DNA of 64,000 nt, taken from Streptomyces sp. NBC_01275. GTDB lineage: Bacteria > Actinomycetota > Actinomycetes > Streptomycetales > Streptomycetaceae. The position numbers were made by a program, and so were the translations under genes. A model generated the notes under the pieces. That model was not told the origin of the DNA, made no database searches, and saw nothing but the letters and a program-made list of their open reading frames with translations. The first letter of the stretch is position 1. The number at the start of each line of letters is the position of its first letter. The stretch is taken from the NCBI RefSeq assembly GCF_026340655.1, contig NZ_JAPEOZ010000001.1, forward strand, positions 1,674,001 to 1,738,000, read 5' to 3'. Of this stretch, positions 16,551-32,637 are shown one piece after another.

Positions 16551-16719
16551 GACCGTCACCTCCACCTCGCACCCGAATATCCGCAACCGAACATATCGCG
16601 AGTCAGCACACCCTGTCCAGAGACGCGATGTAACGCGATCGAGTGACCTCGGCGAGAACGTGAGGACTTGGGCCCGCCCCGGACACGGTCGCGTGACGCG
16701 CATGAAACAGCGCGTCCCT

Positions 16720-16743
16720 AATTTCTGTCGCCCGACAGGAATT
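16720..16743. promoter_or_regulatory. Palindromic operator shared with the carboxylase cluster
   Basis: Inverted repeat AATTTCTGTCG-CC-CGACAGGAATT with one mismatched pair, 33 bp upstream of the APC permease start. The left half, including the preceding CCCT, is identical over 14 bases to a site at 25880-25903 in front of the DUF1989/carboxylase operon, beside a TetR gene. It is therefore likely a TetR operator acting in trans. Confidence 0.7.
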
Positions 16744-16776
16744 CCGCTTCCCCCTGGGCCCAAGGCAGGTTCCGCA

Positions 16777-18315
16777 GTGACGACAACGACACCCTCCGAC
16801 GTACGCCCCGACCCGCCGCACCCGACCGAGTCCGCCGACGGCTCCCTCGCGGAGTTCGGCTACCGCCAGGAGCTGCACCGCAGCCTGGGCCGGTACGCCT
16901 CGTTCGCCGCCGGGTTCTCCTTCATCTCCGTCCTGACGACCGTCTTCCAGTTCTTCGCCTTCGGGTACGCCTTCGGCGGCCCCGTCTTCTTCTGGGCCTG
17001 GCCCGTCGTGCTGGTCGGACAGCTGCTGGTGGCCGCGTGCTTCGCGGAGCTGGCGGCGCGCTATCCGATCTCCGGCGCGATCTACCAGTGGTCGTCGCGG
17101 CTGTCGACGCCCTCGTTCGGCTGGTTCGCCGGCTGGATCATGGTGATCGGGCAGGTCGTGGTGGTCGCCGCGGCCGCGCTCGCCCTGCAGATGGTGCTGC
17201 CCGCGATCTGGTCCGGCTTCCAGCTGATCGGCACCGACCCCGCGCCCACCTCCTCGGACGGCGCGGCCAACGCGGCCCTCCTCGGCGTGATCCTGCTCGT
17301 GCTGACGACGCTGGTGAACGTCCTGGACAACCGCGTGATGTCCGTGATCAACCGGGTCGGCGTCACCGCCGAGATCATCGGCGCGGTCCTCATCGTCGTC
17401 CTGCTGCTCACCCACTCCGAGCGCACGCCCAGCATCACCTTCCACACCGAGGGGGCCGCGCAGAACGGGCTGTTCGGGGCGCTGCTCGTCGGCTCGTTCA
17501 CGGCCGCCTACGTGATGATCGGCTTCGACAGCGCGGGCGAGATGAGCGAGGAGACGCACCATCCACGCCGTACCGCGCCCCGCACCATCCTCACCGCGCT
17601 CGGCGCGGCCGGACTGCTAGGCGGTCTGATCGTGCTGGGCGGACTGCTCGCCGCGCCCAGCCTCACCGACGGACGGCTGGGCGTCGACGGGCTCAGCTAC
17701 GTCCTCACCAGCAGCCTCGGCGACGGCGTCGGCAAGGCGCTGCTCGCGGACGTGGTGGTCGCGATCGCGGTCGCGACGCTCGCCATCCAGACGGCTGCCT
17801 GCCGGATGCTGTTCTCCATGGCCCGCGACGGACAGCTGCCCTTCTCCGGCCGCCTCGCGCGCGTGAACCCGCGTACGGGCATGCCGAGCGCCCCGGCGCT
17901 GGTGGTCGGCGGCCTGGCCGGCGCACTGCTGCTGCTCAACTTCGCCTCCCCGGAGGCGTTCCTGGCCATCGGCACGACCTGCATCGTGATGCTCTACCTG
18001 GCGTACGCCATGGTCACCGGGCCGCTGCTGGTGCGCCGGCTGCGCGGCCAGTTCTCGTCGGCCGGCGTCGACGAGACCGGCGCGCGTCTGTTCTCCCTCG
18101 GCCGCTGGGGCGTCCCCGTCAACGCCCTCGCCCTGCTCTACGGCCTGCTGATGACGATCAACCTGGCCTGGCCGCGGGCGGCGGTCTACGACCCGGCGGG
18201 CGGCCACTGGTACTTCCAGTGGTTCACGGTGCTGTTCCTCGGCGGCACGATCGCGGCGGGCGCGGCGTTTCGGATGTTCCGGAAGTTCCGGACGTACGGT
18301 TCGACGGCGCCCTGA
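16777..18315 (+). CDS. APC superfamily amino acid/amine permease
   Basis: A 512-residue permease with about twelve membrane segments. APC hallmarks are visible: ELAARYPISGAIYQW (near residues 90-104), GWFAGW, and the cytosolic loop MSEETHHPRRTAPRTI (near 256-271). GTG 16777 has GGCAGGT upstream; longer frames are not coding-like. It is divergent from PadR, but the shared palindrome upstream links it to the TetR-controlled urea/guanidine carboxylase cluster at 25.9 kb, so the likely substrate is the nitrogenous compound degraded there. The permease class cannot separate urea, guanidine or amino acids by itself. Confidence 0.88.
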   Translation: MTTTTPSDVRPDPPHPTESADGSLAEFGYRQELHRSLGRYASFAAGFSFISVLTTVFQFFAFGYAFGGPVFFWAWPVVLVGQLLVAACFAELAARYPISGAIYQWSSRLSTPSFGWFAGWIMVIGQVVVVAAAALALQMVLPAIWSGFQLIGTDPAPTSSDGAANAALLGVILLVLTTLVNVLDNRVMSVINRVGVTAEIIGAVLIVVLLLTHSERTPSITFHTEGAAQNGLFGALLVGSFTAAYVMIGFDSAGEMSEETHHPRRTAPRTILTALGAAGLLGGLIVLGGLLAAPSLTDGRLGVDGLSYVLTSSLGDGVGKALLADVVVAIAVATLAIQTAACRMLFSMARDGQLPFSGRLARVNPRTGMPSAPALVVGGLAGALLLLNFASPEAFLAIGTTCIVMLYLAYAMVTGPLLVRRLRGQFSSAGVDETGARLFSLGRWGVPVNALALLYGLLMTINLAWPRAAVYDPAGGHWYFQWFTVLFLGGTIAAGAAFRMFRKFRTYGSTAP

Positions 18316-18346
18316 GGGGGCGCGGGGAACTGGGCGACCGGCCACG

Positions 18347-18385
18347 AAGGCGCCGCAGCGGACCGACGGCCGGTCGCGGCGCCTT
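18347..18385. terminator. Bidirectional hairpin between convergent genes
   Basis: A 10 bp perfect stem (aaggcgccgc / gcggcgcctt) with a 19-base, internally GC-pairing loop, between the APC permease stop and the convergent acetyltransferase stop. Confidence 0.65.
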
Positions 18386-18396
18386 CAGCGGAGCGC

Positions 18397-18978
18397 TCAG
18401 TCGCCCCGTACGCGCGCGTGCAGGTGCATGTCGTGCCAGCCGTCCACGTGCAGGAGGGCGCTGCGCTTGGTGCCTTCCAGGGTGAAGCCGGCCTTCGCGG
18501 CGACGCGGCAGGAGGCCTGGTTGGCGGTGGCGTGCAGCAGCTCCAGGCGGTGGAGGCCGATCTCGTCGAGGGCCCAGCGGGCGAGGGCGGTCGTGGCGCG
18601 GGCGGCGACGCCCCGGCCCCGGGCCGCGGCCGTCGTCCAGTAGGCGACCTCGGCCATGCCGTCGCCGAGATGGATCTCGCGCAGGGCCGCCCGCCCCAGC
18701 AGCCGGTCGGTGTCCGCGTCGGCGACGGCCCACTGGGCGATGCGCTCCCCCGCCCAGCCCGCCGTCCACTCCTCGATCCAGCCGGCGACCTCCGCCACGG
18801 AGTCGGCGGAGCGGACGTGCCACTGGTGGATGAGCGGGTCCTGGAAGGCCGCGTGGACGGCGGGCGCGTCCTCGGCCCGCCAGGGGCGCAGGACCAGCCC
18901 GTCGCCGGTGGGGAGCACGGGCTGCGGGCGGCCGGCGAGGGTTCCGGCGGGCAGGACGGGGCCGGTGAGATCGGGCAT
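18397..18978 (-). CDS. GNAT family N-acetyltransferase (RimJ/RimL type)
   Basis: A 193-residue acetyltransferase. The acetyl-CoA-binding P-loop is RGRGVAARATTALARWAL (about 114-131), preceded by the strand AEVAYWT and followed by LHATANQASCRVAAKAGF, as in RimJ/RimL-like and aminoglycoside-type GNATs. ATG 18978 is preferred, with CAGGA eight bases upstream; ATG 18987 and a more distal GTG/ATG are alternatives. No operon partner is evident. The substrate could be a protein N-terminus or a small molecule. Confidence 0.85.
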   Translation of the reverse strand: MPDLTGPVLPAGTLAGRPQPVLPTGDGLVLRPWRAEDAPAVHAAFQDPLIHQWHVRSADSVAEVAGWIEEWTAGWAGERIAQWAVADADTDRLLGRAALREIHLGDGMAEVAYWTTAAARGRGVAARATTALARWALDEIGLHRLELLHATANQASCRVAAKAGFTLEGTKRSALLHVDGWHDMHLHARVRGD

Positions 18979-19151
18979 GATCCGCATCCTGCCGACGGGG
19001 CGCGAGCCGACCAACGGGTTTTCATCTCGCCACAAGCCCTGGCCGTCGACGTCGGCTGTCAGGGGCCGGGGGTCGGAGGTCGGGGGTCGGGGGCAGCCTC
19101 AGCCGTCAGGGGGCAGCCGTCAGCCGTCGACCGTCGCTGTACGCCCTCGCC

Positions 19152-19177
19152 GTACGCCCGGGCCGTACGCCCGGGCC
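19152..19177. repeat. Two exact copies of a 13 bp unit before the RluA-type gene
   Basis: gtacgcccgggcc repeats head to tail, with partial copies on both sides, in a 226 bp gap that also contains runs of ggtcggggg and cagccgtca. It looks like slippage-prone sequence rather than an operator. Confidence 0.6.
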
Positions 19178-19204
19178 GTAAGCCCCCCCGTAGGCTTGGT
19201 TCCG

Positions 19205-20152
19205 ATGAGACGCCGTACCCCTCCCCCGCCCTCCCCGCTGCCGCAGCGCGACGGGATCGACGCGGTGCGGGTGCGGCTGCCGGGCGTGGGGTCCTGGGCC
19301 ACCGTGCGGGAGCATCTGGTGGCGCGGGTCGGCCAGGCGCGCGCGGGGGTCGTCGACGGAATGCTGGCGGCGGGGCTGGTCGTCGGCGCCGACGGGCGGC
19401 CGGTGGCGTCGGACGCGCCGTACGTGCCCGGGATGTTCGTCTGGTTCCACCGGGACCTGCCCGCGGAGACGCCGGTGCCGTTCCCGCTGGAGATCGTGCA
19501 CCGCGACGAGCACATCGTCGTCGTCGACAAGCCGCACTTCCTGGCCACCACTCCGCGCGGCAGCCATGTCACCGAGACCGCGCTGGCCCGGCTGCGGCGG
19601 GAACTGGGCCTCCCCGCGCTCGGCGCGGCCCACCGCCTCGACCGGCTCACCGCCGGCCTCGTGCTGTTCACCGTCCGGCCCGAGGAGCGCGGCGCGTACC
19701 AGGCGCTGTTCCGCGACCGCCTGGTCCGCAAGGTGTACGAGGCCGTCGCCCCGTACGCTCCCTCGCTCGTGTGGCCGGTGACCGTGCGCAGCCGGATCCT
19801 GAAGGAGCGCGGGATCCTGGCCGCCCGGGAGGTGCCCGGCGAGCCGAACGCGGTCAGCCGCGTCGAGCCCGTCGAGCACCGCCCCGACGGCCTCGCCCGC
19901 TACCGGCTCGTCCCCGAGACCGGGCAGACCCATCAACTGCGGGTGCACATGACCACGTTGGGCGTGCCGATCCTCGGCGACCCGCTCTACCCCGAGGTGA
20001 CCGCCCCCGTACCGCCCGACGACTTCCGGCGACCGCTGCAACTGCTGGCGCGGGAGCTGGAGTTCACCGATCCGGTCACGGGGGCGGAGCACCGGCTGCA
20101 CAGCCGGCGAACGCTCGAGGCCTGGGCGTCGTACGACCGTTGGGCTCAGTAG
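19205..20152 (+). CDS. RluA family RNA pseudouridine synthase
   Basis: A 315-residue pseudouridine synthase. The catalytic Asp is D146 in HRLDRLTAGL (144-153); the substrate-binding strand VVDKPHFLATTP (107-118) and the late motif RLVPETGQTHQLRVHM are in place. The N-terminal 90 residues resemble an S4-like region. It would isomerise uridine in rRNA or tRNA; the target position is unknown. ATG start. It converges with the P450 gene, with only 10 bp between the stops and no hairpin. Confidence 0.92.
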   Translation: MRRRTPPPPSPLPQRDGIDAVRVRLPGVGSWATVREHLVARVGQARAGVVDGMLAAGLVVGADGRPVASDAPYVPGMFVWFHRDLPAETPVPFPLEIVHRDEHIVVVDKPHFLATTPRGSHVTETALARLRRELGLPALGAAHRLDRLTAGLVLFTVRPEERGAYQALFRDRLVRKVYEAVAPYAPSLVWPVTVRSRILKERGILAAREVPGEPNAVSRVEPVEHRPDGLARYRLVPETGQTHQLRVHMTTLGVPILGDPLYPEVTAPVPPDDFRRPLQLLARELEFTDPVTGAEHRLHSRRTLEAWASYDRWAQ

Positions 20153-20162
20153 CCAGTCGGGC

Positions 20163-21638
20163 TCAGTAGCCGCGGCACCAGGCCAGGAAGCGCCGCCAGG
20201 CGTTGGGCCGGCGGGCCGGCGGCTCGGGGGCGGGCGGCGCGGGCTGCGGCGCGGCCACCGGCTCGGGGGCGGGCGGCGCGGGCTGCGGGTCGATGTTCAG
20301 CGGCCGGACGACCCGCTGCGGCGGTACCGGGGCGTGGCTGGGCCTGAGCGTGACGTCCTGCTGAGGCTTCGGCTCGAAGTGGACCGGCAGCGCCACCAGG
20401 TGCCGCGAGGCGATCGACGTGGTCCAGGACAACTCGTCCTCATCGCAGTCGAGTTGCACGTCCGGCAGCCGCGACAGGAGCGCGTCGACGCCGACGTCGG
20501 CGATGGCGCGGCCGATGTCCTGGCCGGGGCACTCGTGCGGGCCGCCGCCGAAGGCGAGGTGGGAGCGGTTGCCCCGCATGTGGGCGGAGAGGTCGGGGCG
20601 CACCCGGGGATCGAGGTTGCCGGGGGCGGGCGCGAAGAACAGACCGTCGCCCTTGCGGATGCGCTGGCCGCCCAACTCGGTGTCCTGCTTGGCCATGTAG
20701 CCGAAGATCGTGCTGAACGGCGGTTCGTCCCACAGGGACTGCTCGACCGCCTCCGGCACCGTCATCTCGCCGCCGTTGAGCCGGGCGAGGAAACGCGGGT
20801 CGGTGAGGACCATGCGCAGCACGTTGGACAGGAGGTTGACCGTGGCCTCGTAGGCGGCGAAGAGCACCAGGCGCAGGTGTTCGCGGACCTCGTCGTCGGT
20901 CAGTCCGGCCGGGTGGGTGATGAGGTGACTGGTGAAGTCCTCGGCGGGCTGGGCGCGGCGGCGGGCGGTGAGCCGGCTCAGCGCGCCCACGACGTACTCG
21001 TGGCTGGCGACGGCGGTCTCGCTGCCCTTGAGCGCGTCCCGGGCGGCGGCGACCATCCGGTCGTTGTACTCGTCGGGCATGCCGAGGATCTGGCACATCA
21101 CCGCCATCGGAAGGTGCTCGGCGAACTGACCGACCAGCTCGGCCCGGCCCTCCTCGCAGAAGCGGTTGACCAGAGCCTGCGTGGCTCGGTAGATGTACCG
21201 GCGCACACTGCGCTCTTCGAGGGTCTCCATGGCCGCGGTGACCGCGGCCCGCAGCCGCTTGTGCTCGTCGCCCTCGGCGTGCGCGCAGATGGGCTGCCAG
21301 GCGATGTGCGGCATGAGCGGGTGGTCGGGCCTGACCTTGCCGTCCCGTTGCGGCGACCAGATGCGGGTGTCCTTGGTGAACTGTGAGGGCGTGCGCGCCA
21401 TCTGCAGGTTCTCGGCGTGCCCGAGGACCACCCACATCGGCAGGTCGTCGTGGATCAGGACCGGCGCCACGGGGCCGTACTCCTCGCGGAGTTGCTCGTA
21501 CAGCGCGCCCAGGTCCTCCGCGCCGGGGCCGTAGAGCCGTTGCAGTCCGCCGGGGCCGCGGCTGTGTGCGGGGCAGCCGGGGGGCGGGTCCAGGGCGAGG
21601 TCGTGCGGTCCGGTCGTGGTGGGGTGTTCAGGGGTCAC
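20163..21638 (-). CDS. cvnE9: Conservon-associated cytochrome P450 (RarE/CvnE-like)
   Basis: A 491-residue P450. The heme-ligand loop is FGGGPHECPGQD with C370; the K-helix region is not the classical ExxR and needs alignment. In the I helix the usual A-G-x-D/E-T-T reads AAYEAT (261-266): the acid E264 is kept, but the Thr that normally helps O2 activation is Ala265. After residue about 410 comes a tail of some 80 residues rich in Pro/Ala with two near-copies of PAPPAPEPVAAP, ending RRFLAWCRGY. It closes the cvnA-B-C-D conservon, as RarE does in the S. coelicolor rar system that represses aerial growth. The substrate is unknown. Confidence 0.9.
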   Translation of the reverse strand: MTPEHPTTTGPHDLALDPPPGCPAHSRGPGGLQRLYGPGAEDLGALYEQLREEYGPVAPVLIHDDLPMWVVLGHAENLQMARTPSQFTKDTRIWSPQRDGKVRPDHPLMPHIAWQPICAHAEGDEHKRLRAAVTAAMETLEERSVRRYIYRATQALVNRFCEEGRAELVGQFAEHLPMAVMCQILGMPDEYNDRMVAAARDALKGSETAVASHEYVVGALSRLTARRRAQPAEDFTSHLITHPAGLTDDEVREHLRLVLFAAYEATVNLLSNVLRMVLTDPRFLARLNGGEMTVPEAVEQSLWDEPPFSTIFGYMAKQDTELGGQRIRKGDGLFFAPAPGNLDPRVRPDLSAHMRGNRSHLAFGGGPHECPGQDIGRAIADVGVDALLSRLPDVQLDCDEDELSWTTSIASRHLVALPVHFEPKPQQDVTLRPSHAPVPPQRVVRPLNIDPQPAPPAPEPVAAPQPAPPAPEPPARRPNAWRRFLAWCRGY

Positions 21639-21738
21639 AGGCGTCGCTCCGAAGCTGTGGTGGATCCGGTGTCGGGGGGGTACGGGGGTGGATGTCCCGG
21701 GAGGGCCGGGGATGTGCGGGGTGCGGAGGGCGAAGGGG

Positions 21739-22359
21739 TCAGGTGAGGGCGCCGCTCAGCGACAGGGTGTGCAGGAAGCGCATCAGGGTCACCAGGACGT
21801 CCCGGCTGGAGGCGCGGCGGCGGACGTCGCACTCCACGATCGGGATCTCGGGCGGCAGGTCGAGGGCGGAGCGCAGGTCGTCCAGGGGGTACCGGGGCCC
21901 GTCGGGGAAGGTGTTGACGGCGACGACGAAGGGCACTCCGCCCTCCTCCAGCCGGCCCATGACCTCGAAGCTGACCTCGAGGCGCCGGGTGTCGACCAGG
22001 ACGACCGCGCCGAGCGCGCCCTCGAACAGTCCGTTCCACAGGAACCAGAAGCGCTCCTGGCCGGGCGTGCCGAAGAGGTAGAGCACCACCTGCTCCGTGA
22101 TGCGGATCCGCCCGAAGTCCATCGCGACGGTCGTGGCGGTCTTCGAATCGGAGCCGTAGTCGTCGTCGACTCCGATGCCCGCCTGGGTCATGGTCTCCTC
22201 GGTGGTCAGCGGCCTGATCTCGCTGACGGAACCGACCATGGTGGTCTTGCCGACCCCGAAGCCGCCCACGATGACGATCTTCGCCGCGGCCGTGGTGGTG
22301 TGCGGCAGACAGTCCTCGGCGCGTGGGCCGGGAATCGTGTCAGAGCCTTTGAAGTCCAT
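21739..22359 (-). CDS. cvnD9: Conservon small GTPase-like protein (CvnD)
   Basis: A 206-residue Ras-like/MglA-related ATP/GTP-binding protein. The P-loop is VGGFGVGKTT (31-40), switch-type residues lie in TMTQAGIGVDDDYG (about 56-69), and the G3-like FGTPGQERFW follows (about 96-105). The G4 motif NKxD is represented only by VAVNTF, as in other CvnD proteins. Its start overlaps cvnC by 20 bp. It is expected to shuttle on and off a membrane complex with CvnA, CvnB and CvnC. Confidence 0.92.
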   Translation of the reverse strand: MDFKGSDTIPGPRAEDCLPHTTTAAAKIVIVGGFGVGKTTMVGSVSEIRPLTTEETMTQAGIGVDDDYGSDSKTATTVAMDFGRIRITEQVVLYLFGTPGQERFWFLWNGLFEGALGAVVLVDTRRLEVSFEVMGRLEEGGVPFVVAVNTFPDGPRYPLDDLRSALDLPPEIPIVECDVRRRASSRDVLVTLMRFLHTLSLSGALT

Positions 22360-22765
22360 GCATCACCGCTTCGAGAAGGGAACGGTCGGGGAGCTCCTGC
22401 CGGACGATCGGGGCGCGCGCCTGTACGAGTTCCGCCGCCAGCATCTCGGTGAGCAGCACCGTGATCACGCTGAACGGCAGACCGAGATAGGCCGACACCT
22501 CGGCCACCGACAGCGGGGCGCTGCACATCCGCAGCACCGCCGTCTGTTCCGGGGTGGCGGACGAGGGCGGTTCGGCGCACGCCACGACTAACGTCACCAG
22601 GTCGAGGGGGGCCCGCTCCCCGTCGGGTCCCGTGATGACGTACAGCCGCTCGGGTTTCTTCTTCTCCCCCTCCTCCTGAGGCTGCGAATCCGAGGCCGAA
22701 GCCGAAGCCGGGGGCGGAAGCGGAGGCGGTAGGGGATGTCGCCGTCGACGTTGGGGAGGCGTCAT
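22340..22765 (-). CDS. cvnC9: Conservon DUF742 protein (CvnC)
   Basis: A 141-residue DUF742 protein. The first 40 residues are a Pro/Arg/Ala/Ser-rich linker; the domain starts at RLYVITGPDGERAPLD and ends in a winged-helix-like segment (SVAEVSAYLGLPFSVITVL). The ATG overlaps the cvnB stop (ATGA), and the 3' end overlaps cvnD. No catalytic role is known; it is thought to bridge the kinase-like CvnA and the GTPase-like CvnD. Confidence 0.9.
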   Translation of the reverse strand: MTPPQRRRRHPLPPPLPPPASASASDSQPQEEGEKKKPERLYVITGPDGERAPLDLVTLVVACAEPPSSATPEQTAVLRMCSAPLSVAEVSAYLGLPFSVITVLLTEMLAAELVQARAPIVRQELPDRSLLEAVMHGLQRL

Positions 22766-23169
22766 ACGGTCTGCCCGTTGCGGCGGGGCGGGCTGGTCAG
22801 ATGGGCGCCGATCCGGACCACCAGGTCGCGCATCGAGGCGCTCATCCGGCCGGGTTCGCAGCGTACGTCGGCGAGGACCGCGAGGTAGGCGTTGGCGCCG
22901 GCGGACATCAGGTAGAAGTAGCCGCCGTCCATCTCGATCATGACGAGGTTCATCTCGCCGTCGACGCTGGGGATCTCCTGGGCGACGGCGCCGGCCAGGC
23001 TCTGCAGGCCCGCGCAGGCGGCGGCGACGCGGTCCGCGGCGTCGGGGTCGCCGGCGTAGCGGGCGATGCGCAGTCCGTCGGCCGAGAGCACGACGATCAT
23101 CTCGATGCCCGGAACGCCGTTGTAGAGCTCCTTGAGCAGCCAGTCGAAGTTTTGGCGCTGCTGGATCAC
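22762..23169 (-). CDS. cvnB9: Conservon roadblock/LC7 protein (CvnB)
   Basis: A 135-residue roadblock/LC7 domain protein (DWLLKELYNGVPGIEMIVVLS at 9-29, then SADGLRIARY). Such domains regulate small GTPases in the MglAB manner. GTG start overlapping the cvnA stop (GTGA). It belongs to the conservon complex. Confidence 0.92.
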   Translation of the reverse strand: MIQQRQNFDWLLKELYNGVPGIEMIVVLSADGLRIARYAGDPDAADRVAAACAGLQSLAGAVAQEIPSVDGEMNLVMIEMDGGYFYLMSAGANAYLAVLADVRCEPGRMSASMRDLVVRIGAHLTSPPRRNGQTV

Positions 23170-24785
23170 GTGAGGTCCCCTTCATCGTCGGCCTCGGACT
23201 TGGCCTTGTCTTCGATCAGATGCAGGTATGCGGTGGGATTGCGGGTGAAGTCGGTGGGGTGGACGCCCGGCGGGGTGTCCTTCTTCAGCCCCTCCCAGAA
23301 GGCCTCGAACGCCAGTCCGGGCTCGGGCTTCTTCTTCTCCCGCTGGGGCTCCGGCTTGGGCTGCGCGAACGGGTCGGGCTTGCCCTGGCGCGCGGCCTCC
23401 TGGGCCGCGTACGCCTCCCGGTAGCGCTGACTGATCGAGACCGTCGTCTTGCTGCGGCGCTGCGGAAGGCCCTGTTCGGTCCACTCGGTGACCACGGGCA
23501 CGTCGTCTTCCAGCGAGACGTTGGCCGGGATCTTCGGGTTGGTGGGGCGGCGCTTCTTGGGCGGGCGCTTGGGGCCCTCGAGCGCGCCCAGGTCGATCTG
23601 CGGCACGGCGGTGGCGCCGATGCCGTGGGCGTAGCCGGGGGCGGGGTCGGAGGTCATCATCTCGCTGGGCACGATGAGGACCGCGCGGACGCCGCCGTAC
23701 GCCGAAGTACGCAGGGAGACCTGCAGGTTGAACGACGTGCACAGTCGGCCGACGACCGCCAGGCCCAGGCGCGGGGCGCCTCCGAGGTCCTGGATGGTGG
23801 CGCCGCGCATGGCGTTCTCCAGCATCCGCTCGGTCTTGGCGCGGCTCTCCTCGCTGAGGCTGACGCCCGCGTCCTCGATCTCGATGGCGATGCCGGTCTG
23901 CACCTCGACGGCGTTGACGTGCACCTTGGTCTGCGGGGGCGAGAAGCGGGTGGCGTTGTCGAGGAGTTCGGCGAGCGCGTGGATGAGCGGCTCGACGGAG
24001 ATGCCGCGGATGTTGACCTTGGCGATGGAGTTCAGCTGGATGCGCCGGTACTCCAGGATCCGGGACATGGCGCCGCGCAGCACGCTGTACAGCGGGACCG
24101 GCTGGGGCCAGCTGCGGCCGGGGCGGCCGCCGCCGAGCACGCCGATGGAGTCGGCGAGGCGGCCGATCAGCGAGGTGCCGTGGTCGATGCGCAGCAGGTC
24201 GTCGAAGACCTCGGGGTTGCGGCCGTGGTCCTCCTCCATCTCCCGCAGTTCCGCGGACTGCTGGTGGACGATCGCCTGGACGCGGCGGGCGACGCTGACG
24301 AACGCGCGCTGGGCGGAGTCGCGCAGGGCGTCCTCGTAGTCGACGATGTCCAGGATCTTCTTGACCACCGCGCGCTGCGCGTCGTCGAGTTCCAGGAAGG
24401 ACGCATCGTATTCACCCAGGCGGAGCATCACCTCCCCGGGGGAACTTCCGCGGCGCAGCCACTCCACGGCGGTGGGCACATGGTCCTCGGCGAGCCGGAG
24501 GTTCTCCTCCTGGTGGGCGGCGACCCGCCGCTCCAGGTAGGCGACGCGCCGGTCGTTCTGCGCGCACTGTTCGCGCAGCCGTCGCTCCCGGCGCAGCCCA
24601 CCGGTCCCCACGGCGGTCAACAAAAGGGTGGCCACGGCCCCGCAGACGCCGACGACGAGCCGGGCCTGCCCCGCCACGAGGGCGACGGCGGCTCCGGTCG
24701 CCGCGGCCATCAGTATCGACGGCAGCAACAGCACACGCACGTAGGGAAGTTCTCGGCGACCGGGTGGGGACTGAACACTCACCAT
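23166..24785 (-). CDS. cvnA9: Conservon sensor kinase-like membrane protein (CvnA)
   Basis: A 539-residue protein with two N-terminal membrane segments (about 15-58), a coiled region to about 90, a DHp-like helix around IDHGTSLIGRLAD, and a HATPase_c domain with N-box ALAELLDNATRFSPP (near 260-275). The G1 box is degenerate (IEDAGVS instead of DxGxG), typical of CvnA proteins whose kinase activity is doubtful. The tail (about 400-539) is charged and probably disordered. ATG 24785 has AGAGG 8 bases upstream. First gene of the operon running to the P450; its promoter must lie in the 24.8-25.1 kb gap. Confidence 0.9.
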   Translation of the reverse strand: MVSVQSPPGRRELPYVRVLLLPSILMAAATGAAVALVAGQARLVVGVCGAVATLLLTAVGTGGLRRERRLREQCAQNDRRVAYLERRVAAHQEENLRLAEDHVPTAVEWLRRGSSPGEVMLRLGEYDASFLELDDAQRAVVKKILDIVDYEDALRDSAQRAFVSVARRVQAIVHQQSAELREMEEDHGRNPEVFDDLLRIDHGTSLIGRLADSIGVLGGGRPGRSWPQPVPLYSVLRGAMSRILEYRRIQLNSIAKVNIRGISVEPLIHALAELLDNATRFSPPQTKVHVNAVEVQTGIAIEIEDAGVSLSEESRAKTERMLENAMRGATIQDLGGAPRLGLAVVGRLCTSFNLQVSLRTSAYGGVRAVLIVPSEMMTSDPAPGYAHGIGATAVPQIDLGALEGPKRPPKKRRPTNPKIPANVSLEDDVPVVTEWTEQGLPQRRSKTTVSISQRYREAYAAQEAARQGKPDPFAQPKPEPQREKKKPEPGLAFEAFWEGLKKDTPPGVHPTDFTRNPTAYLHLIEDKAKSEADDEGDLT

Positions 24786-25099
24786 GTGGGCACCCTCTGT
24801 AGGGATCTGTCGGTATCTTCGGAACATTTGGGAACAAGCGCACGATTACATCTCAACTCGGTGCGCCGCGGGCGAGCTTAGTCCGACAGGATCATCGCCG
24901 TGTCATATTCGGCAACCGCCTGAAACCGACTCCGTACGTGCAGTAACGTCAGGCCCATTTGCACACTCTGACATCATTCGCACACACTCCGTAACGGCGT
25001 ACGGGTGTGCGAAAGAGTTCACCGTGACGGGTGAGACGAGGGTTTCCGCGCCTGCCGACGTCGGGCGGTCAGACCCTGACGCCCTGACCTCCGCGCCGC
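24786..25099. promoter_or_regulatory. Promoter region of the conservon with a 9 bp inverted repeat
   Basis: A 314 bp gap of lower GC content. It contains TTCGCACAC (24977-24985) and its perfect reverse complement GTGTGCGAA (25005-25013), plus a partial third copy TTGCACAC (24959-24966). The TetR gene ends at its far side without an obvious terminator. No coding frame here is convincing. Confidence 0.55.
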
Positions 25100-25735
25100 T
25101 CAGACCCCCGTGATGCGCAGGGCCGCGTCCGCGGTGGCGCGGGCGAACTCCGAGACGGGGCGGTCGGGTTCCGAGCGGTGGACGAGGATGACGCCCTCGA
25201 TCAGCCCGAAGACGAGATCGGTGCGCAGATCGAGCTCGCTCTTGACGAGCGCCCCGCCCGCGGCCGTGGAGGCCAGCAACTGGCGGTAGGCGTCCTTGAG
25301 CTCGGCGCGGACCGCATGGAAGCCGGCGAACCGCTCGGTGCGCACCTCGGGCAGCAGATAGAGGCCGCCGAGGTTGTGCGACCCGCCGCACAGCAGCTCC
25401 ACGTCCGTGCGGCACAGCTCCCACAGCCGGTCCTCGGCGGGCCGCGCGTCCTGTGCGAGCAGCTCACGGGCGTACGCCAGCGAGGGCGTCACGGTGGACT
25501 CCAGCAGCGCGGCGAGCAGCTCCTCCTTGCCGGAGACGTAGTGGTACATCGACGCCTGGCGCATGCCCGCCCGCTCGGCCACGGCCCGGGTGGTGGTGGC
25601 AGCGTAGCCGCGGGTGGTGAACAACTCCGCGGCGGCCGCGAGCAGTTCGGCGCGCGGCGTGAGCCCGCTGTCCGGGCGCTGCGCGGCGCGCGGCCGGCCG
25701 ACCCGGCGTCCGTTGCCCGCGCTGCTCGTCCCCAT
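25100..25735 (-). CDS. TetR family transcriptional regulator
   Basis: A 211-residue TetR protein with the HTH at about residues 27-73 (TTRAVAERAGMRQASMYHYV) and a helical ligand domain behind it. ATG 25735 is followed by the Gly/Arg-rich leader usual for actinobacterial members. It is divergent from the DUF1989-carboxylase operon (222 bp gap) and is the obvious candidate to bind the palindrome at 25880-25903 and the matching site before the APC permease. The inducer may be the nitrogen substrate or a pathway intermediate. Confidence 0.88.
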   Translation of the reverse strand: MGTSSAGNGRRVGRPRAAQRPDSGLTPRAELLAAAAELFTTRGYAATTTRAVAERAGMRQASMYHYVSGKEELLAALLESTVTPSLAYARELLAQDARPAEDRLWELCRTDVELLCGGSHNLGGLYLLPEVRTERFAGFHAVRAELKDAYRQLLASTAAGGALVKSELDLRTDLVFGLIEGVILVHRSEPDRPVSEFARATADAALRITGV

Positions 25736-25879
25736 GCGTTCGATCCTCGCACACGACGACGGACCACGATCTTCCCTTGGCCCCGGGCGGTCTCCGCGAA
25801 GGGCCGACGGCCGACTCCGGTGAGGACTCGGTAACCGCCCCGCAACCCGAGAGCAACGGCGCCGACCCGGCCCGCCCCT

Positions 25880-25903
25880 AATTTCTGTCAAGCGACAGAA
25901 ATA
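25880..25903. promoter_or_regulatory. Probable TetR operator of the carboxylase operon
   Basis: Perfect inverted repeat TTTCTGTC-N4-GACAGAAA, preceded by CCCTAA exactly as at 16720-16743. It lies in the divergent gap, 54 bp before the first DUF1989 start, and could block both promoters. Confidence 0.75.
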
Positions 25904-25957: not shown

Positions 25958-26782
25958 ATGGCGACAGCGACCACGTACGGAGCACGTGCCCACGCCCGGG
26001 CCCAGGAGGGCGCCCGGGCCGAGGCCATGCCGGTCGTCCCGGCCCGGGACTGGCAGAACCCGCCCTGCGAGGCCGGCCACCTGGTGTGGGCGGAGACGGT
26101 GGCGGGCGGCAACTACACCCACCGGGTCCTCGCGCGCGGCACCGAGCTGCGCCTGACCGACCTGCGCGGCGACGCCTGCGCCCACCTGCTGCTGTACGCC
26201 GACGGCCGCCCCTGGGAGCGGCTCAACGTCGCCGACACGGTCAAGGTCCAGTGGAACGCCTACCTGGGCGAGGGCGTCCTGCTCCTCTCCGACCAGGGCC
26301 GCGTCCTCGCCTCGCTCGTCGCCGACGCCTCCGGACGGCACGACGCGCTGTGCGGCACCTCCACCCTCGTACGCAACACCGCGCGCTACGGCGACGGAAC
26401 CCCGCAGTCCGCCTCCCCCGCCGGCCGTGAGCTGTTCAAGCTGGCCGCCGCCAAGAACGGTCTGGAGCCGCGCGACCTGCCGCCCTCCCTGTCGTTCTTC
26501 CAGGGCGTGGAGGTCCGCGAGGACGGCACGCTCGACTTCACCGGCTCGGCAGGACCGGGCGGAAGCGTCACCCTGCGCGCCGAGCAGGACGTGACCGTGC
26601 TGATCGCCAACGTGCCGCACCCCTCCGACCCTCGCCCCGACTACGTCAGCACCCCGCTGGAGGTCCTCGCCTGGCGCGCGGCGCCGACGTCACCGGGCGA
26701 CCCGCTGTGGGAGGCCACTCCCGAGGGCCGCCGCGCCTTCCTCAACACCGCCGAATTCCTCACCGCGAGGGGGCTCGCATGA
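25958..26782 (+). CDS. DUF1989 protein, urea amidolyase-associated type (UAAP1; carboxyguanidine deiminase subunit-like)
   Basis: A 274-residue DUF1989 protein. The conserved core begins at AGNYTHRVLARGTELRLTD-like sequence (about 50-68) and includes DAPG-type GDACAHLL, WNAYLGEGVLLLSD and GRHDALCG, probable metal/substrate loops. In guanidine-degrading clusters paired proteins of this family act as a heteromeric carboxyguanidine deiminase (CgdAB). ATG preceded by GAGGAGGTC. First gene of a four-gene operon; it overlaps the next gene by 4 bp. Confidence 0.88.
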   Translation: MATATTYGARAHARAQEGARAEAMPVVPARDWQNPPCEAGHLVWAETVAGGNYTHRVLARGTELRLTDLRGDACAHLLLYADGRPWERLNVADTVKVQWNAYLGEGVLLLSDQGRVLASLVADASGRHDALCGTSTLVRNTARYGDGTPQSASPAGRELFKLAAAKNGLEPRDLPPSLSFFQGVEVREDGTLDFTGSAGPGGSVTLRAEQDVTVLIANVPHPSDPRPDYVSTPLEVLAWRAAPTSPGDPLWEATPEGRRAFLNTAEFLTARGLA

Positions 26783-27384
26783 GCACGAAGACCGTGGTCC
26801 AGGCACGCGCCGCCTGGTCGTCCGTCGTGCGCACCGACGAGACGCTCACCATCACCGACCTGCACGGCAACCAGGCCGTCGACTTCCTCGTGTACGACGC
26901 CCACGACCCGTCCGTGCGCTACAGCGCGCCCGACACGATCCAGGCGCAGGGCGGCATCTTCCTCACCACGGGCAGCGTGCTGATGTCCAACGAGCACACC
27001 CCGCTGATGACGGTGACCGCCGACGCCGTGGGCCGCCACGACACCGTCGGGGGCGCCTGCTCCAAGGAGTCCAACACCCTGCGCTACGGCCACCACACCT
27101 ATGCGCAGCACGCGTGCGTGGACAACTTCCTCGCCGAGGGCGCGAAGCACGGCCTCGGCAAGCGCGACCTCGTCTCCAACATCAACTGGTACATGAACGT
27201 GCCCGTCGAGCGGGACGGCACCCTCGGCATCGTCGACGGCCTCTCCGCGCCGGGCCTCTCCCTCACCCTGCGCGCCGACCGCGACGTCCTCGTCCTCGTC
27301 TCCAACTGCCCCCAGATCAACAACCCCTGCAACGGCTTCGACCCGACGGCGGTCGAGATGACGATCACCGGGGAACCGGCATGA
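26779..27384 (+). CDS. DUF1989 protein, urea amidolyase-associated type (UAAP2; carboxyguanidine deiminase subunit-like)
   Basis: A 201-residue paralogue of the preceding protein with the same landmarks: GNQAVDFLVYDA, GGIFLTTGSVLMSN, and a Cys/His-bearing GRHDTVGGACSKESNTLRYG, then SNCPQINNPCNGFDPT near the C-terminus. Overlapping ATGA junctions on both sides put it in tight translational coupling with UAAP1 and the carboxylase. It probably forms a heteromer with UAAP1. Confidence 0.9.
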   Translation: MSTKTVVQARAAWSSVVRTDETLTITDLHGNQAVDFLVYDAHDPSVRYSAPDTIQAQGGIFLTTGSVLMSNEHTPLMTVTADAVGRHDTVGGACSKESNTLRYGHHTYAQHACVDNFLAEGAKHGLGKRDLVSNINWYMNVPVERDGTLGIVDGLSAPGLSLTLRADRDVLVLVSNCPQINNPCNGFDPTAVEMTITGEPA

Positions 27385-30300
27385 GCCTCTCCTCCGCCTC
27401 CGCCTCCGCCTTCGACAAGCTGCTGATCGCCAACCGGGGCGAGATAGCCGTACGGATCATCCGCACCGCCCGCGAACTGGGCCTGCGCACGGTCGCCGTG
27501 TACTCCGACCCCGACCGCTCGGCCCCCCACGTCCGGCTCGCCGACGAGGCGGTACGGCTCGGCCCGGCGCCCGCCAAGGAGTCCTACCTCGACGCCGACC
27601 TCGTCCTGAAGGCGGCCAAGGACACCGGCGCGGGCGCGATCCACCCGGGCTACGGCTTCCTCTCGGAGGACGCGTCCTTCGCCCGCCGCTGCGCCGACGC
27701 GGGGATCGTGTTCGTGGGCCCGACGCCCGAGCAGCTGGAGCTGTTCGGCGCCAAGCACACGGCCCGGGCTGCGGCCGAGGCGGCGGGCGTGGCCCTGGCC
27801 CCGGGGACCGGACTGCTGGCCTCCCTCGCCGAAGCACTGGAGAAAGCCCAGGTCATCGGCTACCCGGTCATGCTCAAGGCGACCGGCGGAGGCGGCGGCA
27901 TCGGCATGTCGGCCTGCCACTCCTCCGCCGAGCTCACCGACGCCTGGGAGCGCGTCCAGCGCGTCGCGGCCGCCTCCTTCTCCTCGGCCGGCGTCTTCCT
28001 GGAACGGCTCGTGGAGCACGCCCGCCATGTCGAGGTGCAGGTCTTCGGCGACGGCGAGGGCAGGGTCGTCACCTTCGGCGACCGCGACTGCTCGCTCCAG
28101 CGCCGCAACCAAAAGGTCCTCGAGGAGGCCCCCGCCCCCGGTCTCCCGGACCGCATACGCCGACAACTCGCCGTTTCCGCCCGTGACTTGTGCGCCTCCG
28201 TCGGCTACCGCTCCGCCGGCACCGTCGAGTTCGTCTACGACGCGGCCCGCGAACAGGCCTACTTCCTGGAGGTCAACACCCGCCTGCAGGTGGAGCATCC
28301 GGTCACCGAGGAGATCTACGGCGTCGACCTGGTCGCCTGGATGCTGCGCCTGGCCCGCGGCGAGCGGGACGTCGTACGCGACCCCGGCGCCCCGCGCGGC
28401 CACGCCGTCGAGGCACGCCTCTACGCGGAGGATCCCAGCCGCGAACACCGTCCCAGCGCGGGCCTGTTGACCCGGGTCGAGTTCCCCGGCGGGGTGCGCG
28501 TGGACGGCTGGGTGGAGACCGGCACCGAGGTGACGACGTCGTACGACCCGATGCTCGCCAAGGTGATCGCCTACGGCTCCGACCGCGCCCACGCCCTGGC
28601 CCGGCTCGACGACGCGCTCTCCCGCACCCGCGTCGACGGCATCGAGACGAACCTGGGGCTGGTGCGGGCGGCGCTGGCGGACTCGCGTTTCGTGACGGCG
28701 GCGCACTCCACGGCGACCCTGGCCACCGTCGTCGACCCGACCCCGCGCATCGAGGTGGTCTCCGGCGGCACGCTCACCACCGTGCAGGACTGGCCCGGCC
28801 GCACCGGCCACTGGCAGGTCGGGGTACCGCCGTCCGGCCCGATGGACGACCACTCCTTCCGCCTGGGCAACCGGGCGCTCGGCAACCCGGAGGGCGCCCC
28901 GGGCCTGGAGTGCACCCTCCAGGGCCCGACGCTGCGCTTCACCCACCCCACCACGGTGTGCGTGACGGGCGCCCCCGCGGCGATCGCCGTGGACGGCACG
29001 CCGGTGGCCCCGTGGACGCCGGTGACCGTGCCGGCCGGGGCGCTGCTGGAGGTCGGCGCGCCCGGCGAGCACGGGCTGCGGACGTACGTCCTGTTCGCGG
29101 GCGGCCTGGACGTCCCCGCCTTCCTGGGCAGCGCGAGCACCTTCACGCTGGGCCGGTTCGGCGGGCACGGCGGACGGGCCCTGCGCACGGGCGACGTCCT
29201 GCACGGCGGGACGGTCGCCGGAGGCGAGGCCGAGACCGAGGCCGTGCCGGTGGCCGACCGCCCGGACCTCGGCTCCGTCTGGCACATCGGCGCGGTCGAA
29301 GGCCCGCACGCGGCGCCGGAGTTCTTCACCGAGGACGACATCCGCGACTTCTACGCCGCCGACTGGAAGGTCCATTTCAACTCGGCGCGCACCGGCGTCC
29401 GTCTGATCGGGCCGAAGCCGCGCTGGGCGCGCACCGACGGCGGCGAGGCGGGCCTGCACCCGTCCAACATCCACGACACCCCGTACTCCGTCGGCGCCGT
29501 CGACTACACCGGCGACATGCCGGTGCTGCTCGGCCCGGACGGTCCCTCGCTCGGCGGGTTCGTGTGCCCGGCGACGGTCCTCAGCTCGGAGCGCTGGAAG
29601 CTGGGCCAGCTGCGCCCGGGCGACACGGTGCGCTTCCAGCCGGTGGACACGGCCGGCGCCCCGCGCCCCGACATCGTCGACGGGGGCGTACTGGCCCGGG
29701 ACGGCGACGTGACGTACCGGCGCAGCGGCGACGACAACCTGCTGGTCGAGTTCGGCCCCATGCAGCTCGACCTGGCGTTGCGCATGCGGGTGCACGCCCT
29801 GATGGAGGCGGTGGTCGCCGCCGGCCTGGACGGGGTCACCGACCTCACCCCCGGCATCCGCTCGCTCCAGATCCAGACCGACCCGGATCGTCTGCCCCAG
29901 CCCGAACTCCTCGCGGTGGTACGGGAGATGACGGCCGCCCTCCCGCCCACCGACGCCCTGGTCGTCCCCTCCCGCACCGTGCACCTCCCGCTCTCCTGGG
30001 ACGACCCGGCGACCCGCGAGGCGATCGCCCGCTACATGGCGGGGGTCCGCGACGACGCGCCCTGGTGCCCGTGGAACATCGAGTTCATCCGCCGGGTCAA
30101 CGGCCTGGAGTCGGTGGCGGACGTCTACGACACGGTCTTCGACGCGGAGTACCTGGTCCTGGGCCTCGGCGACGTCTACCTGGGCGCCCCGGTCGCCACT
30201 CCCCTCGACCCCCGCCACCGGCTGGTGACCACGAAGTACAACCCGGCCCGCACCTGGACGGCCGAGAACTCGGTCGGCATCGGCGGCGCGTACCTGTGCA

Positions 30301-30929: not shown

Positions 30930-30951
30930 AACACCCCCGAGGAGCACGCAC

Positions 30952-32637
30952 ATGTCCCCCACCGAGTCCCGCACCGATTCCCGAACCGTCTCCCGCGTCC
31001 GCGCCGCCTACGCCCGCATCGAGGCCGTGGACCGCCCGGAGATCTGGATCGATCTGCGGCCACGACAGGACGTCGAGGCGGAGGCCCGCACCCTCGACGA
31101 GCGGCTGGCACGCGGCGAACGCCTCCCGCTCGCCGGCCGGCTGCTCGCCGTCAAGGGCAACATCGACGTGGCCGGCCTGCCCACCACCGCGGGCTGCCCG
31201 GCGTACGCCTACGAGCCCGCCGCCGACGCCCCGGCGGTCGCCCGGCTGCGCGCGGCCGGGGCGCTGGTCCTGGGCACCACGAACCTCGACCAGTTCGCGA
31301 CGGGCCTGGTCGGCACCCGCTCCCCGCACGGCGCGGTCCGCGGCGCCCACGACCCGGCGCGCATCAGCGGCGGCTCCAGCTCCGGCTCCGCCGTCGCGGT
31401 GGCGCTCGGCATCGTCGATCTCGCCCTCGGCACGGACACCGCGGGCTCGGGCCGGGTCCCGGCCGCCTTCAACGGCATCGTCGGCCTCAAGCCCACCCGC
31501 GGCCTGGTCCCCACCGAGGGCGTCGTCCCGGCCTGCGCCTCACTCGACTGCGTGACGGTGTTCGCCCGCACCCTCCCCGACGCCGAGCAGGCGCTGGCGT
31601 TCATGGCATCGCCGGCCGCCCGCACCCTCCCGCCCCTCCCCGCCCGCGCCCCCGGCCCCTGGCGCATCGCGGTCCCGCCCCTCTCGCAGCTCGGCGAACT
31701 GGACAAGGGCTGGGCGCAGGCCTACGAGGCGGCCGTGGCCCACGTCGCGGCAGCCGGGGCCGAGATCCGCACCCTCGACCTCACCCCCTTCACCGAGGCC
31801 GCGGCGATGCTCTACGAAGGCGCGTTCGTCGCCGAGCGCTACACGGCCGTGGGCGCCTTCGTCGACAAGCTGCTCGCGGAGGGCGGCGCGGGTCTGGACC
31901 CCACCGTCGCCGGCATCATCACCCGAGCCCGCGACATCCCCGCCCACCGTCTCTACTCCGACACCGAGCGCCTGGCGACCCTGCGCGCCCGAGCCCTGGC
32001 CGAACTGGCCGACGCGGACGCCCTGTTGCTGCCCACCGCCCCCGGTCACCCCACCCTCGCCGAGGTCGCCGCAGACCCCCTGGGCGCCAACGCCCGCCTG
32101 GGCCGCTTCACCAACTCCACGAACCTCTTCGACCTGGCCTCGGTGGCCGCCCCGGCCGGCGAGGTGAACGGCCTCCCCTTCGGCGTCATGCTGATCGGCC
32201 CGGCCTTCACCGACGAACGCCTGGCAGGAATCGCGGCCCTGCTCCCACCGCAGACCTACCTCGCCGTGGTCGGCGCCCACCTCACCGGCCAGCCCCTGAA
32301 CCCCCAACTCCTGTCCCTGGGGGCGGTAATGGACCGCACGACCACCACCTCCCCCTCCTACCGCCTCCACGCCCTGCACACGACGCTACCCAAGCCGGGC
32401 CTGGTGTACGTGGGCGAGAACAAGGGCGGCGCAAAGATCGAAACAGAAATCTGGCGCCTCCCGGCAGAGGGCTTGGGCCGCCTGCTGTCGTCCCTCCCCC
32501 ACCCGATGACCCTGGGCAGCGTAGAACTGTCGGACGGAAGCAGGGTCCCGGGCTTCCTGTGCGAACCGAGCGCGTTGGAAGACGCCGAGGACATCACGCG
32601 ACACGGCAGCTGGCGCTCATATCTGAAAGAACGCTAG
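30952..32637 (+). CDS. atzF: Allophanate hydrolase
   Basis: A 561-residue enzyme with an N-terminal amidase-signature domain: K68 in AVKGNIDV, cis-Ser S142 in SGGSSSGSAVAVA, and nucleophile S166 in GTDTAGSGRVPA. The C-terminal domain (about 445-561, beginning PSYRLHALHTTLPKPGLVYV) is typical of full-length AtzF-type enzymes and completes allophanate breakdown to 2 NH3 and 2 CO2. The ATG is 22 bp behind the carboxylase stop, with CGAGGAG upstream. It is the last gene of the operon, before a hairpin shared with the convergent helicase gene. Confidence 0.93.
   Translation: MSPTESRTDSRTVSRVRAAYARIEAVDRPEIWIDLRPRQDVEAEARTLDERLARGERLPLAGRLLAVKGNIDVAGLPTTAGCPAYAYEPAADAPAVARLRAAGALVLGTTNLDQFATGLVGTRSPHGAVRGAHDPARISGGSSSGSAVAVALGIVDLALGTDTAGSGRVPAAFNGIVGLKPTRGLVPTEGVVPACASLDCVTVFARTLPDAEQALAFMASPAARTLPPLPARAPGPWRIAVPPLSQLGELDKGWAQAYEAAVAHVAAAGAEIRTLDLTPFTEAAAMLYEGAFVAERYTAVGAFVDKLLAEGGAGLDPTVAGIITRARDIPAHRLYSDTERLATLRARALAELADADALLLPTAPGHPTLAEVAADPLGANARLGRFTNSTNLFDLASVAAPAGEVNGLPFGVMLIGPAFTDERLAGIAALLPPQTYLAVVGAHLTGQPLNPQLLSLGAVMDRTTTTSPSYRLHALHTTLPKPGLVYVGENKGGAKIETEIWRLPAEGLGRLLSSLPHPMTLGSVELSDGSRVPGFLCEPSALEDAEDITRHGSWRSYLKER

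Follow-up and report, generated by a model that had tools for sequence, protein, structure and literature searches.

Repressors of the AmtR type, which belong to the TetR family, have been described in Streptomyces avermitilis, Mycobacterium smegmatis and Corynebacterium glutamicum. Here, a stretch of 64,000 nucleotides from Streptomyces sp. NBC_01275 (contig NZ_JAPEOZ010000001.1, positions 1,674,001 to 1,738,000 of the forward strand; the whole stretch is called the window throughout) is compared with these systems. It contains an APC-superfamily permease gene and, nine kilobases away, a four-gene operon with a divergently transcribed tetR gene, and we consider it highly likely that these genes form an AmtR regulon with guanidine as its substrate, a judgement that covers the substrate of the pathway and not the ligand of the repressor.

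Control of two transcription units by AmtR has very probably already been published for the sister species S. avermitilis. The study of Chen et al. from 2013 (Microbiology 159:2571) reportedly established direct control of sav_6697-6700 and of sav_6709, with both sites defined, and is said to have described the genes as those of a urea carboxylase and an amino acid permease, with a marginal role in nitrogen metabolism. This casting of the genes is what separates that work from the present proposal, and no link to guanidine was found for it in the literature searched. In view of the S. avermitilis work, the regulon of the window is to be regarded as the known AmtR regulon, and the new content is the link to guanidine. 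The likeness is close: the AmtRsav (sav6701) regulon has the same gene set, a separate permease gene, sav6709, and an oppositely transcribed amtR (PMC4222082). The AmtRsav consensus, TAtCTGTCa-n2-cGACAGATAT (via PMC8864220), has the same CTGTC-N4-GACAG core as the sites in the window. The same genes were described in ten actinobacteria, the permease of S. avermitilis being located elsewhere (PMC4222082).

In M. smegmatis, the homologous genes for permease, carboxylase and amidase belong to the GlnR modulon and are repressed by AmtR (PDB 5e57). Deletion of the DNA-binding part of AmtR raised the transcripts of these genes, the protein bound 5' of the permease gene, GlnR was needed for nitrogen control of the homologous genes, and AmtR binding was unaffected by urea and amino acids (PMC4222082). 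Unlike in the window, amtR is not adjacent to its targets in this species, and the pathway is called a urea pathway. The AmtR of C. glutamicum (PDB 5dxz, 5dy0, 5mqq) shares a homologous fold and the operator type CTAT-N6-ATAG, but its regulon comprises at least 30 genes and GlnK was proposed to release it (PMC8864220).

The pathway itself is known from operons that are controlled by guanidine-I riboswitches. These carboxylase/guanidinase operons include the same carboxylase pathway, and in nitrifiers APC permeases lie beside guanidine genes (PMC12186494, PMC11410670, PMC12508155), but the sensor is an RNA and not a protein repressor. According to a 2025 review, riboswitches are the sole known guanidine receptors besides transporters and guanidine-metabolising enzymes, and guanidine-sensing transcription factors were raised as a future possibility (PMC12186494). 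No guanidine-responsive transcription factor was named in the titles of the literature searched, and no link between AmtR and guanidine was found in that literature, which mostly did not reach subscription papers; the two papers returned for the pair both deal with insects. A preliminary description of the window, made from its sequence alone, had pointed to the shared palindrome; the identity of the repressor as AmtR, the guanidine substrate, the GlnR-like boxes and the prior work on S. avermitilis and M. smegmatis are what is added to it here.

The preliminary description had placed one palindrome ahead of the permease gene and one ahead of the operon, with a common left half of 14 bases, a GACAG right arm and identical 4-base spacing. 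Both sites were found at these places, each directly 5' of the gene named for it, and the permease start codon, a GTG at 16777, lies 33 bases past the first. Operator 1 reads AATTTCTGTC-GCCC-GACAGGAATT and operator 2 reads AATTTCTGTC-AAGC-GACAGAAATA, the spacer being 4 bases long in both. The common 14-mer, CCCTAATTTCTGTC, is real as well, but it begins 4 bases earlier than had been given, at 16716 and 25876. Operator 2 is a perfect TTTCTGTC/GACAGAAA palindrome, and one pair is imperfect in operator 1 (GACAGGAA). Both sites contain CTGTC-N4-GACAG, the operator type of AmtR in species that possess GlnR.

A scan for further copies, which had been proposed as a check, was run on the whole 10.4-Mb genome. 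The exact pattern TTTCTGTC-N4-GACAG occurs in two places only, both inside the window, and a reversed control pattern gave no exact match. When TTTCTGTC-N4-GACAGRAA was searched with up to three mismatches, matches with none or one mismatch were confined to the two window sites and all others carried two or three, giving a total of 34 against 29 for the control. Since the matches at two to three mismatches occur at about the control rate, no further AmtR targets are claimed. Within the window, 12 matches at up to three mismatches compare with 9.0 expected, and loose matching is therefore uninformative. With only two exact operator places in the genome, a large regulon of the C. glutamicum type is disfavoured. 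Taken together, the sequence comparisons indicate that the operator pair is real, specific and very probably functional.

The conservation of the sites was investigated in a sample of 199 genomes of the genus. The exact site was present in 49 and the carboxylase in 55 of them; 47 genomes had both, two only the site, eight only the carboxylase and 142 neither (Fisher p 1e-34, uncorrected for kinship). The two sites without carboxylase, in G085 (contig C43) and G096, were set aside as chance occurrences, none of ten query proteins having matched within 14 kb around them. As to the eight carboxylase genomes that lack the exact site, one (G097) has sites with one mismatch, five have divergent operons and two have carboxylases of the Asn type described below. 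The five divergent guanidine operons carry a single ATACCTGTC-N4-GACAGGTA(T/A) ahead of the permease gene, and their order is permease, DUF1989 pair, carboxylase, hydrolase and TetR relative, with the stretch ending there in three of them.

The site tables leave out the seven loci with divergent or Asn-type carboxylases, and the row of L123, a contig-end artefact, was dropped from the permease counts. In all 45 window-type loci of the genus in which a permease was found, an operator precedes it (43 exact and two with one mismatch), and all 47 operons have theirs (45 exact and two with one mismatch). The core is followed by GAA at 44 of the 45 permease sites versus AAA at every one of the 47 operon sites. 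The two sites are thus kept as distinct alleles across the genus, which favours two functions and disfavours recent copying. The tetR gene, on the minus strand, is divergent only from the second unit, as had been noticed before, and the suggestion that the permease is a target in trans gains from these counts: with unique sites that are each conserved with their own right arm, it is very probably correct. Two of the outcomes that the preliminary description had named as refuting it, numerous additional copies and a permease site not conserved in relatives, did not arise.

The distance between the two units varies. Both exact sites were found on one contig in 39 genomes, 2.4-4.1 kb apart in nine and 8.2-13.0 kb apart in 30. 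The nine short-spacing loci gave no match to the P450 or histidine kinase genes that separate the units in the window, and these genes were present in the long-spacing rows among those listed; insertion or loss of the P450/kinase block in one piece could account for this difference. G511 retains both sites, 8.4 kb apart, with its TetR gene about 1.15 Mb distant. The distance between the units matters little.

The TetR protein of the window is AmtR. Its best solved match is M. smegmatis AmtR (PDB 5e57, E 1.3e-37). The AlphaFold model (mean predicted local distance difference test, pLDDT, 87.8) has M. smegmatis AmtR as its first fold match, and AmtR from either M. smegmatis or C. glutamicum accounts for all of the top 14 PDB fold-match chains. 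A tree was built from 41 rows, which covered only AmtR-like rows and, as an outgroup, five TetR paralogues (32-36% identity); in it, a 100/100 branch split the AmtR-like rows from the paralogues. Seven residues, D111, N121, Y126, E130, F139, Y150 and E180, are common to 134 of 142 aligned rows. This full set occurs in M. smegmatis AmtR and also in the AmtR proteins from two Corynebacterium species whose locus is of the guanidine type. The C. glutamicum AmtR differs, with E, N, Y, I, Y, F and M at these positions, that is, with E130 and E180 replaced and Glu in place of D111. The other rows that deviate are L302 (E130 to D), the distant L148 and the five paralogues. That the AmtR proposed to be released by GlnK has lost acidic residues suggests a role of these residues in ligand sensing, for which a cationic compound such as guanidinium would be suited; structural roles are possible too. 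E180 is part of helix 165-188 in the AlphaFold model, a helix possibly placed at the dimer interface.

The operon (25958-32637) encodes two DUF1989 proteins, a carboxylase and an allophanate hydrolase. The carboxylase matches TIGR02712 with 1839 bits, the cut-off being 1304. It was reported that guanidine carboxylase needs Asp at the position of Kluyveromyces lactis residue 1584, and that Asp at 1330 separates it from urea carboxylase (PMC11410670). In the alignment to 5i8i, D708 of the window enzyme corresponds to 1330 and D931 (counted by hand) to 1584; an above-cut-off TIGR02712 match is thus combined with Asp at both diagnostic positions, as in guanidine carboxylase, and the two DUF1989 proteins adjoin the carboxylase as in a carboxyguanidine deiminase pair. 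Both Asp residues are present in 51 of the 53 scored loci of the genus, the window included, and Asn occupies the first diagnostic position in the other two (G069, G171); two of the 55 carboxylase genomes (G001, G196) were unscored because the contig ends ahead of the residue. In the fetched stretches of the Asn-type loci of G069 and G171 no permease, DUF1989 genes or site were found, and the Asn-type loci of G405 and G246, from another family, likewise had no DUF1989 pair, permease or operator. The urea type is thus without the operator in all four cases, and judged by its diagnostic residues the AmtR regulon in this genus is very probably a guanidine regulon.

The permease matches the NCBIfam family TIGR03428, 'permease, urea carboxylase system', with E 5e-194 over positions 2-473 of 475, and from its score it appears to be a relative of this family rather than a certified member. 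That the permease would import the substrate of the operon had been proposed from the shared operator; the TIGR03428 match, although below the cut-off, supports this proposal, and guanidine is the candidate for the transported compound.

At the loci of G044 and G097 the APC permease was not found. G044 (L105) has a guanidine-type operon with operator and TetR, and the best permease relative in its genome is 31% identical. In G097 (L116), a sodium:solute symporter (PF00474; 7926-9467, minus strand) occupies the place of the permease, under a one-mismatch operator near 9498 and a box of the form GTAAC-n6-GAAAC. The APC permease copy that this genome does carry, on a different contig, is interrupted by TGA and has no operator at up to two mismatches in a 4-kb stretch. 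A search of 18 genomes found the symporter in G097 alone; here import may have passed to a transporter of another family.

Boxes of the forms listed for GlnR in PMC10704036 were present 5' of both operators. Among the operon promoters, 38 of 47 have a GlnR-like box at most 140 bases 5' of the operator, all at offset -51, and among the permease promoters 32 of 45 have one (29 at -29 and three at -49), as compared with means of 0.1 and 0.2 loci and a maximum of 2 in 200 mononucleotide shuffles; the pattern was written after the box had been noticed in the window. These boxes would be binding sites of GlnR. A possible -10 element, TAATTT, overlaps each operator, and AmtR would therefore block the promoter itself.

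Outside the genus, the system was followed in the family f3, centred on G405, which we take to be Mycobacteriaceae in the sense of GTDB. A permease relative at E <= 1e-80 was present in 140 of 251 genomes of this family, and 40 regions were picked by hand from these 140 genomes, one to three per genus and not at random. The operator core, at up to one mismatch, was found 5' of the permease in 32 of the 36 regions with DUF1989 genes and a carboxylase homologue and in none of the four regions without the full gene set (chance expectation 0.024 cores per searched interval), and Asp aligned with residue 708 in 35 of the 36. A scan of named genomes with one permease returned 232 relatives. Among the best 80 of the 232, again not a random set, from Mycolicibacterium, Rhodococcus, Gordonia, Dietzia, Williamsia, Corynebacterium and others, the core at up to one mismatch was present in 80 of 80 (0.014 expected), Asp in all 79 that were scored, and a TetR relative within the examined stretch in 58. 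The rule of up to one mismatch was set after examples had been inspected. A phylum-wide search found the carboxylase in 23 of 396 genomes, 11 over the cut-off and 12 with the carboxyltransferase part only; three of the latter (G433, G445, G460) are operator-bearing loci. L199, L204, L208, L227 and other f3 loci have two operator cores about 32 or 95 bases apart 5' of the permease, which might serve amtR and the permease operon separately.

Riboswitches were also searched for. With stricter filters, a search of the 55 genus genomes that bear the carboxylase gave no guanidine-I riboswitch, and two of the three non-genus genomes searched alongside, G619 and G597, gave one. In the window, cmscan of all Rfam at the gathering score returned no match, a guanidine riboswitch included, and the same search returned nothing in the eight genus loci that have the carboxylase but lack the exact site, in L124-L126 or in eight of the 80 named loci. 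Among 20 + 15 loci of f3, the sole guanidine riboswitch was that ahead of the permease of G619 (L211, G619:C216), where a guanidine-I riboswitch (5225-5343, minus strand) precedes a TIGR03428-like permease and then the carboxylase homologue. One exchange between operator and riboswitch around the same permease family is therefore visible, though the pathway genes of G619 are divergent.

Based on the two unique sites, their separate conservation, the identity of AmtR, the guanidine-type residues and the boxes, all obtained by computation, we infer binding and repression by AmtR, the action of GlnR and the substrate of transport. AmtR, made from the divergent gene, would bind both palindromes and repress both units. 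The APC permease would import guanidine, and the carboxylase, the carboxyguanidine deiminase pair and the allophanate hydrolase would turn it into ammonia and CO2. The two regulators would form an AND gate, in which GlnR activates under nitrogen scarcity and AmtR is released with guanidine or a pathway metabolite. That guanidine or a pathway intermediate is the ligand that releases AmtR is the most speculative part of the proposal.

Other explanations have to be compared with this one. It seems hardly credible that the likeness of the two sites is due to chance or recent duplication and that the permease site has no function; the imperfect palindrome of operator 1 would suit this idea, but the site stands ahead of the permease in all 45 genus loci where a permease was found, in 44 of them with the right arm peculiar to it, and operators precede the permease in other families too. 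Urea as the pathway substrate, with the permease importing urea or an amino acid, is what the NCBIfam names imply (urea carboxylase, urea amidolyase-associated proteins, permease of the urea carboxylase system), and the cited AmtR papers speak of urea metabolism. We regard it as very improbable, given both diagnostic Asp residues (by the rule of PMC11410670), the four Asn-type loci, two in the genus and two elsewhere, that have no DUF1989 pair, permease or operator, and the report that urea had no effect on the binding of M. smegmatis AmtR (PMC4222082).

AmtR might instead read the general nitrogen status through GlnK, with no small molecule, as is thought to happen in C. glutamicum, for whose AmtR, close in fold to the TetR of the window, no small-molecule effector is known (PMC8864220). 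However, nitrogen control in M. smegmatis persists without AmtR and is lost without GlnR (PMC4222082), so that AmtR is not the nitrogen reader there. The C. glutamicum protein moreover has E, I and M where 134 of the 142 rows, M. smegmatis AmtR included, have D111, E130 and E180, and the genome of the window has only two exact operator places; release through GlnK thus appears improbable for the window. Repressors of catabolic operons often sense a pathway intermediate, and the ligand of AmtR could accordingly be carboxyguanidine or allophanate, or else a substituted guanidine such as methylguanidine. Such a ligand is rather unlikely in our estimation, though by no means negligible. The guanidine-II riboswitch of V. 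boliviensis does not separate guanidine from methylguanidine (PMC12508155). The presence of the permease in the same regulon fits sensing of the imported compound instead, and the riboswitch that replaces the operator in G619 is of the guanidine-I class, but neither point is decisive.

Several observations weigh against a guanidine-responsive AmtR regulon as proposed here. The permease, with 645.5 bits, stays below the curated TIGR03428 cut-off of 740.45. At the locus where the riboswitch replaces the operator, that of G619, the carboxylase has Met at the first diagnostic position and the DUF1989 proteins are only 35% and 54% identical to those of the window. Three f3 loci with TetR have no operator at up to one mismatch, two of them having one at two mismatches. 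The carboxylase homologue lacks the biotin carboxylase part at 34 of the 36 f3 loci and at no fewer than 78 of the 80 named ones, the part being present in two of 36 and one of 80, respectively; outside the genus, either a biotin carboxylase from elsewhere serves the homologue or its activity differs. Given this carboxyltransferase-only form, guanidine can be claimed firmly as the substrate only where the genus has full-length enzymes, that of the window among them. No small-molecule effector is known for the AmtR of C. glutamicum, and its release is believed to depend on adenylylated GlnK (PMC8864220). Finally, G085 encodes an AmtR orthologue with 78% identity (L313, 8889-9530) beside P450-like open reading frames (ORFs); no carboxylase was detected in this genome, and the retained orthologue suggests that AmtR could act on other genes as well.

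The features of the window that belong to the proposed regulon are listed in Table 1. The interval between the two units holds genes for an acetyltransferase-like protein, a P450, a GTPase-like protein and a histidine kinase-like protein, and an ORF that appears to encode a pseudouridine synthase. The set resembles a conservon, and the conservon-like block of P450, GTPase-like and histidine kinase-like genes spans 20163-24827. A plasmid search gave two partial matches.

Table 1. Genes, operators and promoter elements of the proposed AmtR regulon (positions are those of the window).
Feature	Position	Strand	Basis
GlnR-like box GTGAC-n6-GAAAC, 5' of operator 1	16693..16708	+	
-10-like TAATTT over left edge of operator 1	16719..16724	+	conserved columns; putative promoter element
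AmtR-type operator 1, 5' of permease (AATTTCTGTCGCCCGACAGGAATT)	16720..16743	+	sequence, genome scan, genus conservation
APC-superfamily permease, TIGR03428-like, candidate guanidine importer	16777..18315	+	ORF and profile matches
AmtR-type TetR repressor	25100..25735	-	sequence, model, fold match, tree
GlnR-like box GTAAC-n6-GCAAC, 5' of operator 2	25831..25846	+	
-10-like TAATTT over left edge of operator 2	25879..25884	+	conserved columns; putative promoter element
AmtR-type operator 2, between tetR and operon (AATTTCTGTCAAGCGACAGAAATA)	25880..25903	+	sequence, genome scan, genus conservation
UAAP1, DUF1989, predicted carboxyguanidine deiminase subunit	25958..26782	+	TIGR03425 above cut-off, PF09347
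UAAP2, DUF1989, predicted carboxyguanidine deiminase subunit	26779..27384	+	TIGR03424 above cut-off, PF09347
Biotin-dependent guanidine carboxylase, full length; annotated family urea carboxylase TIGR02712	27381..30929	+	
Allophanate hydrolase	30952..32637	+	profile matches

For the genus, a guanidine substrate would mean that the 'urea' annotation of such operons is to be corrected, and the same correction would apply in Rhodococcus, Gordonia and Mycolicibacterium if the carboxyltransferase-only forms are active. Guanidine as the substrate of the pathway also provides a concrete candidate ligand where urea and amino acids failed on M. smegmatis AmtR in 2013. As a tentative proposal, to which we give somewhat less than an even chance, AmtR may have begun as a sensor of guanidine, or of an early product, through D111, E130, E180, Y126 and Y150, filling in Actinomycetia the role that riboswitches play elsewhere. 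The C. glutamicum AmtR would then descend from such a sensor, having shed the residues needed for sensing and come under the control of GlnK. The prevalence of carboxyltransferase-only homologues outside the genus takes a little from the chance given to this proposal. If this is true, AmtR would be the first guanidine-sensing transcription factor, of the kind hypothesised in the review cited above (PMC12186494), and it would explain the riboswitch-free regulation of guanidine genes that is possible in many actinomycetes. It would also suggest how, in a bacterium of industrial use, the global regulator of nitrogen metabolism arose from a repressor with a local role in catabolism.

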